From a virus, in IMG/VR virus record IMGVR_UViG_3300022221_000015, positions 1 to 40,818 of that record: 40,818 bases of DNA. One strand, written 5' to 3'. Positions 1,202-27,783 of this stretch are shown one piece after another; the stretch's first letter is position 1, and each line of letters starts with the position of its first letter. Under the pieces are notes generated by a model. The model did no database searches, was not told where the DNA came from, and saw only the letters and a list, made by a program, of their open reading frames with translations. The translations under genes and the position numbers were made by a program.

Positions 1202-1621
1202 GTGAGCATAGGTAAATTAACAACTAGACATATGAAGATCATGATGGCCCTTGTTGAAGGGAGTCGTCCTTGTGAAGTATGTGAAGAGTTTGGAATCACG
1301 GAGTCTCGTTTATCCGTCCTAAGAGCCACGGCTCTATGGAAGAGTAAGGAGGAGGAGTTGACTAATCAATCACTGGCGGATTCCTTACTTCGTATTAATA
1401 GTCTGAGAGGTTCGGCAGTTGATGCCTTGGAGGATTGTCTCAAATCTGAAGACGATCGGGTTAAGTTAGCCTCCGCTCGTGATATTCTCGATAGGACCGG
1501 TATTAAAGCCGGGGCCGAATTGACCGTTAGCGGAGATACAAGTATTAATCTTTATATACCGAAAGGATGGAACAACAGTGAACAAGGAGTCCCTAGTGAA
1601 GCTGGAGCCTCAAGAGATTGA
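1202..1621 (+). CDS. terS: terminase small subunit
   Basis: A 139-residue protein directly before and overlapping the large terminase gene. The N-terminal part (about residues 5-45) reads as a helix-turn-helix, with PCEVCEEFGITESRLSVLR the best candidate, followed by a long helical segment. This is the usual build of phage small terminases, which recognise the packaging site and pass DNA to the large subunit. GTG start with GGAG 8 bp upstream. It is the first gene of the late + strand operon. The call rests on architecture and position. Confidence 0.75.
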   Translation: MSIGKLTTRHMKIMMALVEGSRPCEVCEEFGITESRLSVLRATALWKSKEEELTNQSLADSLLRINSLRGSAVDALEDCLKSEDDRVKLASARDILDRTGIKAGAELTVSGDTSINLYIPKGWNNSEQGVPSEAGASRD

Positions 1622-3023
1622 CCTTTTATATGGTAGGAAAGGACCCACGGTTAAACAAGAACTCTTTCGAGACCACCCAGCGAAGTATAGATTATACGGA
1701 GGAGCAGTTGGAGGTGGTAAGAGTTGGGCCATATGTGCTGAAGGACTTAGGGTATCTCTAGCCTATCCAGGGAATAAAGGATTCATGTGTAGGCATGAGT
1801 CAACTTCGTTTAAGAATACAACCCTTGCCACTCTCATGAAACTTATAGGAGAGCTGGAGGAACTAACAAAGAAGAAAATATTGGTAAATCACCATCGAAC
1901 GGATAGAGTTATAACTCTTATAAATGGAAGTGTTATAGTCTATGGAGCACTTGGAGACTCCAGTGATGTAGAGAGGATAAAGTCTCTCGAAATAGGATGG
2001 TTCGCAATAGACGAAGCCAGTGAGACAGCCGAGGGGAATTACCAAATGCTCAAGTCTCGTCTTAGGTGGAGACTTCCGAATGGAGGATTTCCTCCCTTCT
2101 TCGGTTTATTAGCCTCTAACCCTGAACCGGGTTGGGTGAAGAATACCTTCGTAACTCCGGAGAAAATGGGAATGCCTCTCCCGAATCACGTATTTATCCA
2201 AGCACTCCCTCTAGATAATCCTCATCTTCCACCGGATTACCTAGAGGACCTAAGAGCGAGTAACCCGGAACATTGGGTTGTTAAATATATAGAAGGTTCA
2301 TGGGATGCCTTGAAGGGACAGATATTCGACGGATTCAATTCTGAGAAATCAGTTATTGATCCTTTTGATATTCCCTCCAACTGGTTAAAGTTCCGAACTC
2401 TAGACCACGGACAGAATAACCCAACCTGTTGTCTATGGTGTGCGGTAGACCCAGACAGTAATATCTTCGTCTATCGAGAATACTATTCCTCCGGAGTGGT
2501 GAGTAAACATTGTAAAGAGATTAATCGTCTATCCGAAGGAGAAGAGTACGAATATACCGTACTCCCTCACGACCTTTGGAACAAGACAAGAGAGAAAGAT
2601 GGAAATTTATGGTCAGTTTATAACGAATACGTGGAACACGGAATCTATGGAATCCGAGCCAATAACGAGGTCAATGCCGGACTCAATAGAGTTAATGAGT
2701 TCTTTTTCTCCAATTCAGAGAGAATACACCCGATTACGGAGGAGAAGGGAAGCCCTCGATTATTTATCTTTTCCAATTGCCGAAATCTAATCCTTGAGAT
2801 TCCAGACTATATCTGGAAAGATGGAGAGGATAAACCAGTTAAGGTAAACGACCATGCCTGTGACGCTCTTCGGTATGGGATAATGACAAGACCTTCCCCA
2901 GCCTTAGAAGATGAAGTAATACCAATTAACTCTTTCATGGCCATGAGAAAGAGAATGATACAGGCTAATAAACGAGCGGAGAGAAGGGGAACCTCTCCAT
3001 ATGAAGAGTACAGGAGGATTTAA
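1578..3023 (+). CDS. terL: terminase large subunit (packaging ATPase/nuclease)
   Basis: A 481-residue motor protein that pumps DNA into the prohead and cuts it. The ATPase domain has a phage-type Walker A, GGAVGGGKS (residues 41-49), and a Walker B ending in D145-E146. The C-terminal RNase H-like nuclease begins near residue 272 with LDHG (D276) and ends with DHACDALRYG, supplying acidic residues. GTG start, overlapping the end of the small subunit gene by 44 bp. Length and motif order are normal for the family. Confidence 0.93.
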   Translation: MNKESLVKLEPQEIDLLYGRKGPTVKQELFRDHPAKYRLYGGAVGGGKSWAICAEGLRVSLAYPGNKGFMCRHESTSFKNTTLATLMKLIGELEELTKKKILVNHHRTDRVITLINGSVIVYGALGDSSDVERIKSLEIGWFAIDEASETAEGNYQMLKSRLRWRLPNGGFPPFFGLLASNPEPGWVKNTFVTPEKMGMPLPNHVFIQALPLDNPHLPPDYLEDLRASNPEHWVVKYIEGSWDALKGQIFDGFNSEKSVIDPFDIPSNWLKFRTLDHGQNNPTCCLWCAVDPDSNIFVYREYYSSGVVSKHCKEINRLSEGEEYEYTVLPHDLWNKTREKDGNLWSVYNEYVEHGIYGIRANNEVNAGLNRVNEFFFSNSERIHPITEEKGSPRLFIFSNCRNLILEIPDYIWKDGEDKPVKVNDHACDALRYGIMTRPSPALEDEVIPINSFMAMRKRMIQANKRAERRGTSPYEEYRRI

Positions 3024-3025
3024 AG

Positions 3026-3241
3026 ATGTCAAGTTTTACTGATATATTCACGGACCTGGTAAGTTCCAAGTCTAAGAGACAAAAGATGTATGAACAAGGA
3101 GCTTTAGACGAGAGTGACCTTTCCGAAGAAGAGAAGAAGAAGTTTAAAAAGAAGAAGAAGAAAAAGCCTATTATGAATAACAATTCCTCCACTACGAAGG
3201 AATCGTCAGGGAGTCTTCTAAAAGCAATAACTGGGAAATAA
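3026..3241 (+). CDS. small lysine-rich hypothetical protein
   Basis: A 71-residue protein with an acidic patch (about residues 27-37) followed by a run of some 11 Lys/Phe residues and a Ser/Thr/Asn-rich tail. ATG lies 3 bp after the terminase stop, with AGGAGGATTTAAAG upstream as a strong ribosome binding site. The basic stretch suggests binding to DNA or to another acidic protein. It has no recognisable family. It is the last gene before the RNA-like element. Confidence 0.75.
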   Translation: MSSFTDIFTDLVSSKSKRQKMYEQGALDESDLSEEEKKKFKKKKKKKPIMNNNSSTTKESSGSLLKAITGK

Positions 3242-3243
3242 TA

Positions 3244-3392
3244 AATAAGAGAGGGGGAAGAAATCCAGGCACTGTTCCTTCCACCCCTTGCGAACAACTT
3301 GGGCACATGAAGCTCCCTCTCTTATTGACCAATAACAAAACGCGGCTTCATGTGGGAAACGTAAGGGGTGTGGGGTCGAGGGGCGAAGCCCC
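3244..3392 (+). ncRNA. candidate pseudoknotted structured RNA upstream of an HNH gene
   Basis: Four pairings were found by eye. Stem A: 3244-3255 with 3315-3326, 12 perfect pairs. Stem C: 3282-3292 with 3360-3370, 11 pairs including one G-U. Stem B: 3304-3313 with 3345-3354, 10 perfect pairs, nested inside C. Hairpin D: GGGGC-GAA-GCCCC at 3380-3392. The 3' strand of A lies in the loop of B, so A and B cannot nest and would form a pseudoknot. The element fills the gap between a stop codon and an HNH gene that begins 20 bp after D. Mobile RNA-plus-HNH units and group I intron remnants are possible relatives, but I could not match it to a known class. Confidence 0.65.
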
Positions 3393-3411
3393 AGATAAAC
3401 AGGAATTCCAA

Positions 3412-3765
3412 ATGAAAGTTATAGTTGGGAAACTACTTACGAAGAAGAGAAGAAGGAAGAGATTACAACCTGATATTGAATATTGCAAGAACGCTACAAG
3501 TGAGGAGAAGTTCCTCCAGTTTCTCGATTATTATAAAGGATTACCTTTCAAGGATATTTATAAGAAATATAACGAGACACTTGATTGGAAGAGGAAGAGA
3601 GATAATAAATTCCGATCAGCCAATTGGAAATGTGAGAAGTGTAAAGGAAGGAATAAGTTACAGGTTCATCATAAGAATTATAAAAAATGGTTTGATGTTA
3701 CCATGAAAGACCTTATCGTATTATGTGATAAGTGTCATAGAGAAGAGCATCCGGATAAAGTATGA
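3412..3765 (+). CDS. HNH endonuclease
   Basis: A 117-residue nuclease of the zinc-stabilised HNH type: C74-x2-C77, the catalytic VHH (H86-H87), then C105-x2-C108 with H109 and H113. Such small HNH proteins are usually homing endonucleases in phage genomes. An in-frame ATG at 3307 would extend the protein into the RNA-like element; I chose 3412 because it has AGGA 7 bp upstream and leaves the element intact. The stop overlaps the next ATG (ATGA), so it is translationally coupled to the virion gene that follows. Confidence 0.85.
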   Translation: MKVIVGKLLTKKRRRKRLQPDIEYCKNATSEEKFLQFLDYYKGLPFKDIYKKYNETLDWKRKRDNKFRSANWKCEKCKGRNKLQVHHKNYKKWFDVTMKDLIVLCDKCHREEHPDKV

Positions 3766-4343
3766 ATGTAGATAAGAAGACTGTCCATGCCGATATTTCG
3801 GTTGGAGATAAGGTAATTAGAAAGAAGTACTACTGGCACGAAGATCATCATGATGAAGATCGTATAAAGCTTAACAAAGCTACTAACTACCTATCTGCTT
3901 ATATGACAAATGCAGGTGAGCCTGACATGGCAGTTAATGGAGGTACTCCGGTTACATATTCATATACAGTCCCAGAAGGAAGTACTGTCGAGATACACAG
4001 ACTTTTACTTGCGATAGAACATGGAACAGTTGCTTTTGTATCAGGACATTTTGGAGCACTCGGAGCAGCTTTAACTAATGGAGTTGAGATATCAGTAACT
4101 AATTCTGGAGTAACTACGATATTAGAGACTTGGAAAACTAATAGGCAAGTGCGAGATACCATGTTTGACTTTGATCAGGCGTTTAAAACAAATGGTGCGT
4201 ATACTGGAAGATGGACATTCACAAAAGACTTAAATGCTGTAGGAATTGAATTGAAGTCAGGAGATTCTTTTCAAGTTAAAATTCAAGATGACTTGTCTAG
4301 CTTAGACTACCTAAGTATGAGACTTAAAGGGAATATATCATAA
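3762..4343 (+). CDS. probable virion protein between terminase and portal
   Basis: A 193-residue protein of unknown family. The N-terminal 35 residues are charged and His/Asp-rich (WHEDHHDEDR). The rest alternates short hydrophobic and Thr/Gly/Ser-rich stretches typical of beta-sandwich virion proteins. Start overlaps the HNH stop by 4 bp and its own stop overlaps the portal start (TAATG). Position in the head operon suggests a minor head or capsid-surface protein. No enzymatic motif is visible. Confidence 0.65.
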   Translation: MNVDKKTVHADISVGDKVIRKKYYWHEDHHDEDRIKLNKATNYLSAYMTNAGEPDMAVNGGTPVTYSYTVPEGSTVEIHRLLLAIEHGTVAFVSGHFGALGAALTNGVEISVTNSGVTTILETWKTNRQVRDTMFDFDQAFKTNGAYTGRWTFTKDLNAVGIELKSGDSFQVKIQDDLSSLDYLSMRLKGNIS

Positions 4344-10804: not shown

Positions 10805-12173
10805 GAAGAAAGTATTTATAGGAATACCTTGTTTCGGAACAGTAGCACCAGAGATATTGGAAGATTGGATGAGATGGACATATCACCTTGGTAGGCGATT
10901 GACCAATTATGATTTCTTCCTTGGAATTAAAACTAAGAGTGAACAGTTCAGAGCTAGGAATTCAATAGTAACAGCGGCTAGGCAGATAGGGGCCGATTAT
11001 CTTCTCATGCTGGATGATGATATGATTATTGATATTGATAAGAATATTGGAGAGAGTTCTAGTTATTCTTTTATTGATAAGCTCATCAATCACGGGAAGG
11101 ATATTTGTGGAGCCTTATATTACCACCGTGGTGGAGAGTGTCGTCCTATAGCCATGATGGAATATGGAACTGCTCATAGGTTCTTAAGGGATGATGAGAT
11201 AACTCATTCACTTCAAGAGGTAGATGTAGCCGGTGGTGGTTGCCTTATGATTGATATGAAGGTATTCGACGGACTGAAGGAACCTTATTTCGCTCCTGAA
11301 TTCGAATATGGAACGGATATACAACTATGTAAGAAGGCGAAGGAAGCTGGATTCTCCGTGTTCATAGATTCGAGTATTGAATTCGGACACCTTAAGAATG
11401 AGCGTTCTATCGTTACTTCCAGAAACCGTCACATTCATATGGCTCAAGATATGGTAGCCGGTGAGGAGAGTGTGAAGTTTGTAACCAGTGAAATTCTTAT
11501 GGATCTTGTTGAGGATGCCAAGAAGTTTACCGGTTACAATACTATAGACGAGATGGTAGGTGCTGGTAATTCCTTCATGGATGAATGGGAAGAAGGACTT
11601 GGTCCAGAGGAAGTAGCAGATTGGTACAGGAAGTATCCTAATGAGAGAGTGGCTAGGCAGGTGGCTTATCTCACGCAGACTGCTCATAAGAAACAACTAT
11701 TGGATACAGTTCTCCAGTCCGTCTCTGATGCCAAACCTTATCGTATTCTAGACTTCGGTTGTGGAACTGGTACTATTGGATATGAGCTTGCTAAGAGAGG
11801 TCATGATGTTCACTTTATGGATATAAAAGATACAGCAACATTTAAGTTTCTCCAATGGAGAATTAAAGAGAATAATCTCAAAGGTATATTTATAGATTCA
11901 CATGGAGGTCCTCCAGTAGGATTGGATGGGAATAAGTTTGATGTTATAATCGCTATGGATTCCATAGAGCATATAGAGGATTGGCCAGAAGCCGTTAGGA
12001 TACTTGCTGATAGGTTAGATTCTCAAGGAGTAATGTTCTCGAATAACGGAATACTAGACGATCAAGGACACCCTGAGCATTTCCCACTTAAGCCTAAGGA
12101 TTTCCAGATTGAAATGATTAAGAACGGATTGCAACCAGTAAATCAAATTACGTATATTAAACAAGGAGGTTAA
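10791..12173 (+). CDS. glycosyltransferase-methyltransferase fusion
   Basis: A 460-residue two-domain enzyme. Residues about 7-240 look like a GT-A glycosyltransferase: FRARNSIVTAARQIGADYLL followed by LDDDM, with D75-D77 as the likely metal and sugar-nucleotide site. Residues about 300-460 are a class I SAM-dependent methyltransferase with motif I ILDFGCGTG (319-327). It sits inside the structural operon between head and tail genes. Modification of a virion or host-surface glycan is a reasonable inference; DNA modification is less likely from the position. Substrates are unknown. Confidence 0.8.
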   Translation: MTKNKKKVFIGIPCFGTVAPEILEDWMRWTYHLGRRLTNYDFFLGIKTKSEQFRARNSIVTAARQIGADYLLMLDDDMIIDIDKNIGESSSYSFIDKLINHGKDICGALYYHRGGECRPIAMMEYGTAHRFLRDDEITHSLQEVDVAGGGCLMIDMKVFDGLKEPYFAPEFEYGTDIQLCKKAKEAGFSVFIDSSIEFGHLKNERSIVTSRNRHIHMAQDMVAGEESVKFVTSEILMDLVEDAKKFTGYNTIDEMVGAGNSFMDEWEEGLGPEEVADWYRKYPNERVARQVAYLTQTAHKKQLLDTVLQSVSDAKPYRILDFGCGTGTIGYELAKRGHDVHFMDIKDTATFKFLQWRIKENNLKGIFIDSHGGPPVGLDGNKFDVIIAMDSIEHIEDWPEAVRILADRLDSQGVMFSNNGILDDQGHPEHFPLKPKDFQIEMIKNGLQPVNQITYIKQGG

Positions 12174-25506: not shown

Positions 25507-27783
25507 CTATCCCTTACACTCACTCCAATTACTACCTGTTTCAATATCTAACGGGATTGTTAGATAGTCTCCTCCTACTATAACTGGTCTTTCTACTACT
25601 CTCCTGAGTGTATCATGTACTTCTTTCTCCTGCTCTGGATATCTCTGGACGACTACTTCATCATGGACTTGTATGAGAAGTTCTGCTCCCTTCGGCAGTG
25701 CATGGTCAAGTCTGACAAATGCAGCGTTTATATAATCCGCAACTGTAGACTGCGGGATATAGGAGATTGCTTCCCTTTTTATAGGGTCTCCCCATCTACC
25801 GAAGAAGGTTCTCTTCCTTCCCATCGGTGTCATTAGTTGTCTTGTACTATTCAACTCTCCCTCTATCTTATGATGCCAGGCTTTGACCATTGGGAATAGT
25901 TTGAAGTACTCACCTTGGACTATCTTAGCTTGGCTTACCGGTATTTCACAAAACATGGCCAGAGTGTTAATACCCATGCAATAGTTTGTACCATGGACCA
26001 CTCGCTTAGCCAAAGATCGCTGCTCTTTCGTAGGCGTTACGGTATTAAATATAAGACGTGCAATCGAAGAATGTATATCCCCGCCTTCGTTAAATACATT
26101 CTTGAGTCCTTCATCTCCACTCTCCCATGCTACTGCCATTGCCTCGGCTTGTTTAAGGTCAGCGGCATCCAATACCTTCCCTTCATCTGGTACGAATATC
26201 TTCCTCGACGAAGGAGGTATATTCTGGAGATTCATGCCACTTCCGAATATATTCTTCCTCGAGGACAGCCTTCCAGAGACTGTTAATCCATAGGATGTTC
26301 TCATTCTGAAATCCTTATCCATCTTTATATCCACGTATGTAGATTTCAACTTACGGATATTCCTCAACTCAAGGATCTTCTTCAACTCCGGTTTATGATG
26401 TTTGACCGCTAGTTTTTCTATAATATCTTTACCACTAGAGAGTCTCCCACTTTTCCTATCATACTGTTTCGGAAGCTTAAGTTTATTATAAAGATATTCG
26501 GTTAACTGTTTCGGAGAATTGATATTAACTCCTCCTGTTATTTCGTCAACCTCTTTTGATAACTCTTCCTCCCTATTATTAATTTCAATAGAAACTTCCT
26601 TAAGAAGATCAAGGTCAATCTTCACTCCTCTCATCTCCATTCTCCATAGAGAGTACATTAGCTGGTGATCATAGGAGAAGTAGAACTCTTCCATCTTTGT
26701 CTCTTTTAGCTCTTCCCACAATTCCATAGCTATTTCGAAAGTGGCGGCTACATCGTTACAGTTGTATTCCCATAATTTAGAATCATCACTGTCATCCTTA
26801 GTAGTCTTCCCGTCTTCCTTCCAATATGGAATATCAGTGTACACACTCCCAAGGAAATCGAGACCGTGAGGGAATTCTGGATAGAGCAGAGCATGTGCTC
26901 TCATCGTGTCCATCCATATGTTCATGGAAGACTGTGTAAATTCTTCCATCTGAGTCAACTCGAAGTTGGCGTTCTGTGCAATAACTTTTTTGGTGGCTAG
27001 TAGTTTGACTACTCTTCTCCATATCTCATTTTCCTCAGTCTCACTCCATACAGGAGTCATCTTATTTAGGAGAGGGATACAGAGGGCATAGTCTTCCCTG
27101 TGACCTAAGCCTATACAACGTATGACCTTCGCTGATCGGAATGTCTCAAGGTCAAGGCTGATATACTCTCCCTCTTCTTGCATCATGTCAAGTTCGGTTA
27201 TATAATCTTGGAAGTTAGTCATACCGAATTTATAATTTCTTTCCTTCCTCTGCACCTCTGGGAACTCGCTTTCCTTTCTTATCCTTTGAAGATCGAATGA
27301 GAGAAGGTGAACGAAATCATATTGCCTTAAGGCTAGAGCAGGGTGAATGCTTGGAATTATTTTATAATCCCTGTCTGCTTTAATCCCTCCCTCACCTTCG
27401 GACAGTTTGAATATACTACCTCTATACTTAGTGATAGAATTAAAACTATTACCCATGACAATGCGAAGAGCAAGATTCCCGAGAGGTATGATAACATTCG
27501 GATTGACCTCATTAATCTCCTCTTGAAGTTCCTTTATATAGTCCTCTGTCTTAATTCCTATTTCGTATAACCTCTCTATCTTATTCCCAGGAGGACGAAC
27601 CTTAACCACATTGGTTATATAGATTTCATTCCTTCTCAGACCGGCACGGGATAGGCAGTTATCAAGAAGTCTCCCTGCTGTGCCAACGAATGGTTGACCA
27701 TGCTTCTCTTCTTCTGTACCAGGAGCCTCTCCTATTATCATTATCTTTGCGTCTTTGGGACCTATCGCTTCAACTCTTTTCAT
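25507..27783 (-). CDS. uracil-glycosylase-like/3'-5' exonuclease/family A DNA polymerase fusion
   Basis: A 758-residue replicative polymerase. Residues 1-175: family 4 UDG-like domain with GEAPG (18-22) and HP (147-148). Residues about 205-350: DEDDy exonuclease with D211, E213, N273 and Y340-D344. Residues about 370-758: polymerase with motif A DLKQAE (D542, E547), O-helix R589-x3-K593-x3-H597-x3-Y601, and motif C HDE (707-709). Fusion of UDG and PolA is known from SPO1-type phages. Odd points: all four UDG iron-sulfur cysteines are absent, and H597 sits where E. coli Pol I has F762. GGAG lies 5 bp before ATG. Confidence 0.92.
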   Translation of the reverse strand: MKRVEAIGPKDAKIMIIGEAPGTEEEKHGQPFVGTAGRLLDNCLSRAGLRRNEIYITNVVKVRPPGNKIERLYEIGIKTEDYIKELQEEINEVNPNVIIPLGNLALRIVMGNSFNSITKYRGSIFKLSEGEGGIKADRDYKIIPSIHPALALRQYDFVHLLSFDLQRIRKESEFPEVQRKERNYKFGMTNFQDYITELDMMQEEGEYISLDLETFRSAKVIRCIGLGHREDYALCIPLLNKMTPVWSETEENEIWRRVVKLLATKKVIAQNANFELTQMEEFTQSSMNIWMDTMRAHALLYPEFPHGLDFLGSVYTDIPYWKEDGKTTKDDSDDSKLWEYNCNDVAATFEIAMELWEELKETKMEEFYFSYDHQLMYSLWRMEMRGVKIDLDLLKEVSIEINNREEELSKEVDEITGGVNINSPKQLTEYLYNKLKLPKQYDRKSGRLSSGKDIIEKLAVKHHKPELKKILELRNIRKLKSTYVDIKMDKDFRMRTSYGLTVSGRLSSRKNIFGSGMNLQNIPPSSRKIFVPDEGKVLDAADLKQAEAMAVAWESGDEGLKNVFNEGGDIHSSIARLIFNTVTPTKEQRSLAKRVVHGTNYCMGINTLAMFCEIPVSQAKIVQGEYFKLFPMVKAWHHKIEGELNSTRQLMTPMGRKRTFFGRWGDPIKREAISYIPQSTVADYINAAFVRLDHALPKGAELLIQVHDEVVVQRYPEQEKEVHDTLRRVVERPVIVGGDYLTIPLDIETGSNWSECKG

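Follow-up and report, generated by a model that had tools for sequence, protein, structure and literature searches.

A predicted pseudoknotted RNA directly before a small HNH endonuclease gene in the head operon of an uncultured phage

What occupies positions 3242–3411 of the genome of an uncultured phage, directly before a small HNH endonuclease gene, and does it belong to that gene? The DNA analysed here (the window, 40,818 nt) is an IMG/VR virus without close kin. The gap is located in the head operon, and its surroundings are as follows.

1578–3023, + strand: terminase large subunit (TerL)
3026–3241, + strand: 71-aa ORF flanking the insert 5′; Vibrio phage 1.021 has an ORF of equal length in this position
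3401–3404, + strand: Shine–Dalgarno sequence AGGA of the HNH gene, read from the sequence, outside all four stems
3412–3765, + strand: small HNH endonuclease gene, 117 aa, with intact CxxC..HH..CxxCH..H (PHROG phrog_119, E = 1e-11)
3762–4343, + strand: 193-aa protein (p193) on the 3′ side of the insert, with a homologue in Vibrio phage 1.021
4343–6136, + strand: portal-like head-to-tail protein, homologue of an annotated 'head to tail joining protein'

According to the PHROG match, the gene behind the gap is an HNH gene, as the preliminary description had stated. The RNA and the gene had been called fused, but they are adjacent, and the start codon ATG at 3412 follows the gap directly. The Pfam HNH profile gives 18.1 bits, below its cut-off of 21.4, and residues 57–115 match positions 179–238 of the IscB profile with 20.9 bits against a cut-off of 175. 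The Shine–Dalgarno sequence and the start codon lie outside the stems described below, and the Shine–Dalgarno sequence is predicted to be about half unpaired. No stop codon interrupts the HNH frame within the element, for which the chance is about 0.04–0.12, and a coding role of this open frame is possible. At its end, the HNH gene overlaps the start of the 193-aa gene by ATGA at 3762. Elsewhere in the window (25507–27783, − strand), a uracil-DNA glycosylase domain is fused to a family A DNA polymerase (Pfam UDG, DNA_pol_A_exo1 and DNA_pol_A).

Using capsid alignment, 80 relatives were retrieved, with a best capsid identity of 52%. TerL and portal are neighbours in most of them, and neither this RNA nor any HNH gene is located between TerL and portal in any of the 80. 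In Vibrio phage 1.021, a distant phage, the order is TerL, 71-aa ORF, p193 homologue and portal, and the 71-aa ORF is separated from the p193 homologue by 2 nt. The two p193 proteins show 34% identity (pairwise E = 6e-17), and no similarity is detectable between the two 71-aa ORFs. Therefore, this comparison, which had been proposed as a means of finding the exact borders, gives a closed site by synteny and not an empty site at the nucleotide level, and it places the borders at the gene level only. As the flanking genes are without the insert in Vibrio phage 1.021 and the relatives, the RNA and the HNH gene look like one insert. Judged from the sequence, the two appear to have been inserted together (about 3242–3761) between two head genes, and, since the RNA is absent from the relatives, it seems to have travelled with the HNH gene. 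The earlier view of a mobile unit in the head operon thus agrees with the single insert, and we infer the mobility from position only. The HNH gene stands alone between conserved phage genes and is absent from relatives, which is the setting of a free-standing homing endonuclease. In another phage locus (L049:865–3324), the terminase large subunit contains an intein (Pfam Intein_splicing), and an HNH-like ORF (2460–3086) is nested in another frame.

The region 3242–3411 was searched for inverted repeats, and three long stems were found within 3244–3370, followed by a short hairpin.

3244–3255, + strand: stem A, 5′ strand AATAAGAGAGGG, all 12 nt complementary to 3315–3326
3282–3292, + strand: stem C, 5′ strand CACCCCTTGCG, 11 pairs with 3360–3370, one of them G–U
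3304–3313, + strand: stem B, 5′ strand CACATGAAGC, 10 of 10 Watson–Crick pairs with 3345–3354
3315–3326, + strand: stem A, 3′ strand CCCTCTCTTATT, within the loop of stem B
3345–3354, + strand: stem B, 3′ strand GCTTCATGTG, from the same search
3360–3370, + strand: stem C, 3′ strand CGTAAGGGGTG, from the same search
3380–3392, + strand: hairpin D, GGGGC-GAA-GCCCC, from the same search

These results confirm the three near-perfect stems of 12, 11 and 10 pairs, the GAA hairpin and the crossing of A and B that had been described before. All 12 pairs of stem A and all 10 of stem B are of the Watson–Crick type, and the G–U pair in stem C is the single one overall. The strand order is A5 C5 B5 A3 B3 C3, so that stem B is enclosed by stem C and stem A crosses both. 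Because the 3′ strand of stem A is located in the loop of stem B, the arrangement is a pseudoknot. No T-run follows hairpin D, and thus it is not an intrinsic terminator; no T-run follows stem C. G/C hairpins with a GAA loop resembling D are frequent behind the capsid gene of relatives.

The same strand order with close spacing was then scored in 60 dinucleotide shuffles of the 40.8-kb window and in 2.68 Mb of other phage loci. The site in the window scores 85.5, whereas the best shuffle reaches 73.5 (any hit was obtained in 4 of the 60) and the best site elsewhere 79.0. This bears out the earlier remark that chance would rarely give such an arrangement. Single stems are less informative in this regard, as about 20 Watson–Crick stems of at least 9 bp are found per shuffled window, and two of the three stems are purine/pyrimidine-rich. 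Ordinary minimum-free-energy folding gives an unremarkable z of −0.9, because plain folding of this kind cannot score a pseudoknot. The predicted energy of C and B without A is about −30 kcal/mol, and that of A as a duplex is about −17. The nested alternatives are nearly equal in predicted energy (−49.9 with A alone and −46.6 with C and B alone), and therefore the modelled RNA may be either a pseudoknot or a two-state switch. We conclude that the three-stem crossing arrangement is a real, non-random pseudoknot, as predicted from the sequence.

A short sequence before the terminase operon resembles both ends of the element.

913–952, + strand: 40 nt sharing ATAAATAARAGAGGGG (5′ end), GGGGTCNNGGGG and GGAATTCC (3′ end) with the element, the core being missing

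The resemblance suggests that the element has its borders near 3241 and 3409 and that 913–952 may be a deleted second copy. The imperfect palindrome ATTGACCAAT is present in exactly three copies in the window, at 1068–1077, 3324–3333 (in the loop of stem B) and 10898–10907, which may be chance.

Relatives of the element were sought by several approaches. In Rfam, no match is obtained at the gathering score, and none with E up to 5 in 3150–3500, whereas the same tool detects a group I intron in L022 and the int-alpA RNA in nine loci. The Rfam search suggested in the preliminary description thus places the element in no known class. The element itself gives nothing credible in BLASTN searches of phages and plasmids, and single-protein scans of IMG/VR with the HNH protein and with TerL give nothing. 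A pattern scan with the GGGGTCNAGGGGCGAAGCCCC hairpin finds only unrelated high-GC repeats, and one with the joining segments finds three matches, all coding and attributable to chance. The HNH loci in bacterial genomes and plasmids contain distant HNHs only. No homologue of the element was found by sequence in any of the collections, and the fold is predicted from a single sequence. Thus, the fold has no covariation support, and a conserved function is not indicated.

Four known systems were compared with the element, and each was rejected as its identity. The omega RNA of HEARO/IscB (OMEGA) is likewise structured and is followed immediately by a gene for an HNH nuclease. Its protein, however, has PLMP, a split RuvC and HNH in about 400 aa or more, whereas the protein here has 117 aa and neither RuvC nor PLMP, and Rfam gives no match. 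Group I introns with HNH also combine a pseudoknotted RNA with an HNH gene in phages, but the element has no Rfam match and no split exon and is located between intact genes. The earlier statements that the IscB layout and a split exon are lacking therefore hold, as only the HNH part of the 117-aa protein matches and the flanks are intact separate genes. In L022, a group I intron (RF00028, 3141–3460) overlaps the end of an HNH ORF. The int-alpA RNA is a compact phage RNA that also precedes HNH genes of this kind directly, but the element has no RF02996 match and differs in sequence and stem order. Type III toxin–antitoxin systems (ToxIN) consist of tandem pseudoknot repeats, a terminator and then a ToxN-fold RNase; here tandem repeats and a terminator are absent, and the gene is HNH and not ToxN.

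Scans with HNH alignments showed that many small phage HNH genes start 10–30 nt behind a compact knotted RNA. A crossing-stem score was calculated for the 170 nt before each gene, and the controls were ORFs preceded by a gap of 100 nt or more. A score of at least 52 is reached before 8 of 70 phage HNH genes and before 1 of 628 other ORFs (Fisher p = 6e-8). Not all of the HNH loci are independent, L145 and L190 being similar, but the eight top cases represent about seven RNAs, unrelated by eye. At a score of at least 40, the counts are 29 of 70 and 77 of 628. The score upstream of the HNH gene in the window is 60. The enrichment is contributed by the int-alpA RNA (RF02996), by a family not in Rfam that is named family I here, and by others (L145/L190, L173, L178, L028 and L019). 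The int-alpA RNA stands directly before a small HNH gene in nine phage loci (L127, L148, L149, L153, L155, L160, L161, L163 and L166), with about 10–25 nt from the end of the RNA to the HNH start. Further knotted RNAs, unrelated by eye, are found in the 170 nt before HNH genes in L145, L190, L173, L178, L181/L191/L196, L028, L021/L176 and L023/L182. The Bacteroidetes-type promoter TATATTTGC is present in some further knotted RNAs preceding HNH genes. Pseudoknotted RNAs with the strand order of the window element and a U-run at the end are also present in L276 (845–940) and twice in the L310 phage (9306–9406 and 9985–10082).

Family I is a phage RNA family without an Rfam match, present at no fewer than 120 IMG/VR sites; one example is the following.

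L119:1386–1488: family I RNA, on the same contig as L012

The other loci are L120–L125, L129, L184–L187 and L199–L318. The layout comprises a −10-like box, a hairpin P1, two pseudoknots (TTGGCGG/CCGCCAA and GGGTA/TACCC) and a terminator stem with a U-run. In 36 aligned members, the A, C and B pairs are retained throughout. Compensatory changes occur in A (CG/AT/TA) and in B, and stem D occurs as GC, AT, TA and CG. The genes behind the RNA, named mostly by eye, are DUF1376-like, ParB-like, HNH, GIY-YIG and NUMOD4 genes. Among the matches listed, an HNH gene of the window type is located behind the RNA at 10 of about 115 readable sites; about 15 further listed sites have, by eye, a NUMOD4-HNH, GIY-YIG or other HNH-like gene (three confirmed by Pfam), and the remaining readable ones have ordinary phage genes. 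As family I is mostly without HNH, the RNA there exists independently of the homing endonucleases that settle behind it. Family I resembles the window element in the strand order A5 C5 B5 A3 B3 C3 and in its occasional position 10–30 nt before a homologous HNH gene. Unlike the window element, it comes with a −10-like box of its own, additional stems and a U-run, and it is covarying, widespread and mostly without HNH. The two show no sequence similarity, and the boxes TAAGCC, TCTGC, CCAAC and CTAGGGCTTTT and the U-run of family I are absent from the window element.

We propose, with moderate confidence, that the element (about 3241–3411) is a compact pseudoknotted cis-acting leader of a free-standing HNH homing endonuclease, and that both were inserted together between head genes. 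This proposal is built on the stems, their crossing order, the improbability of the arrangement, the HNH gene behind it, the closed site elsewhere and the enrichment before such HNH genes. Several other explanations have to be weighed against it. Accidental complementarity within purine/pyrimidine-rich DNA would agree with the ordinary z-score and with the failure to find a homologue that shows conservation. It is nevertheless highly improbable, since the topology score exceeds all 60 shuffles of the window and all 2.68 Mb of other phage DNA, and crossing stems are enriched before HNH genes. The pseudoknot might instead help ribosomes to pass from the 71-aa ORF into the HNH frame by programmed frameshifting or read-through; the HNH frame is −1 to that ORF and open from 3181 through the element. 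This reading fails for lack of a slippery heptamer: no X XXY YYZ precedes the TAATAA at 3239–3244. Moreover, the open frame has a chance of about 0.04 and the HNH gene has its own Shine–Dalgarno sequence and ATG, so that we give frameshifting hardly any weight. The inverted repeats could act as DNA, either as hairpins or as binding or cleavage sites for the HNH protein or a recombinase. The sequence 913–952 repeats both ends of the element without the core, as a deleted or solo copy would, and exact copies of the loop sequence ATTGACCAAT are present at 1068 and 10898. However, interleaved arms are the layout of neither a transposon nor a cruciform, and the single G–U pair in stem C suits RNA; a role as DNA is improbable.

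It is conceivable, though unlikely, that the element is an independent small RNA of the phage, regulatory or of the early region, and that the HNH gene has simply settled downstream of it, as homing endonucleases do with other knotted RNAs of phages. The minority of family I sites with a window-type HNH, the GIY-YIG, NUMOD4-HNH and ordinary phage genes behind the other sites, and the int-alpA RNA, known from other contexts and found directly before HNH in nine loci, agree with this explanation. Against it, the window element is located in the head operon without a clear promoter or terminator, and its absence from the same place in relatives suggests that it came with the HNH gene. In a ribonucleoprotein, by contrast, the RNA would guide or restrain the nuclease, as a HEARO/IscB-like guide or a type III-like RNA antidote. 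Unrelated pseudoknotted RNAs do recur with one HNH family, and the HNH domain weakly matches the HNH segment of IscB. But the 117-aa protein is without RuvC, bridge helix and PLMP, no guide region is recognisable, the tandem RNA repeats of type III systems are absent, and most copies of the commonest paired RNA have no HNH gene behind them. A complex of this kind is accordingly doubtful in our view. As family I stands mostly before other genes, a partnership between RNA and protein is not implied, and we give it low confidence. The HEARO-kind partner considered in the preliminary description is likewise not supported, for the commonest family is mostly located before unrelated genes, and GIY-YIG and NUMOD4-HNH genes take the same place behind the knotted RNA. 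More doubtful still is the idea that very small phage HNH nucleases with dedicated upstream pseudoknotted RNAs (guide, activator or antidote) form a minimal RNA-dependent HNH system independent of IscB and Cas9, with the pair in the window as a member.

In the leader model, the control of expression by the element is what we infer by analogy. The pseudoknot and the GAA hairpin, as part of the late transcript, would act in cis. The structure would halt ribosomes and nucleases arriving from the 71-aa ORF, or shield against them, and the nuclease would be translated only from its own Shine–Dalgarno sequence just downstream, in small amounts or at a set time. Translation of the 193-aa and portal genes would follow by coupling through the ATGA overlap. 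The HNH protein would then spread the unit of RNA and HNH gene by cutting genomes without it. Among the points against this model are the failure to find a homologue of the element and its lack of the U-run and the promoter carried by most RNAs of such kind.

In T4-type phages, RNA hairpins before homing endonuclease genes limit translation, and seg43(25) of Aeromonas phage 25 has a hairpin of very high stability immediately upstream of its ribosome-binding site (RBS), which is left uncovered (PMC2988022). The leaders of mobE of Aeh1, segB of T4 and seg43(25) resemble the window case, as a free-standing nuclease gene is located between conserved genes with a stable RNA upstream of the RBS (PMC2988022). 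The likeness to seg43(25) extends to the free RBS, as the Shine–Dalgarno sequence in the window is outside all stems. The T4-type leaders, however, are simple hairpins, most of which cover the RBS, whereas the window element consists of three crossing stems and a GAA hairpin, has no sequence relation to them and contains no known late promoter. Thus, structured RNA leaders of homing endonuclease genes are known, and a three-stem pseudoknot without known relatives as such a leader is most likely new.

The restraint of phage homing endonucleases by RNA hairpins has so far been known from a few T4-type phages. Knotted RNAs before phage HNH genes most likely control or shield the expression of these genes. 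The window case on its own is perhaps of less value than the general pattern and the new family I RNA. It can now be asked directly whether such nucleases bring an RNA device for their own control with them, insert behind phage RNAs already in place or bind the RNA. The window case and the enrichment suggest that small HNH genes are widely preceded by elaborate pseudoknotted RNAs, most of which are undescribed.
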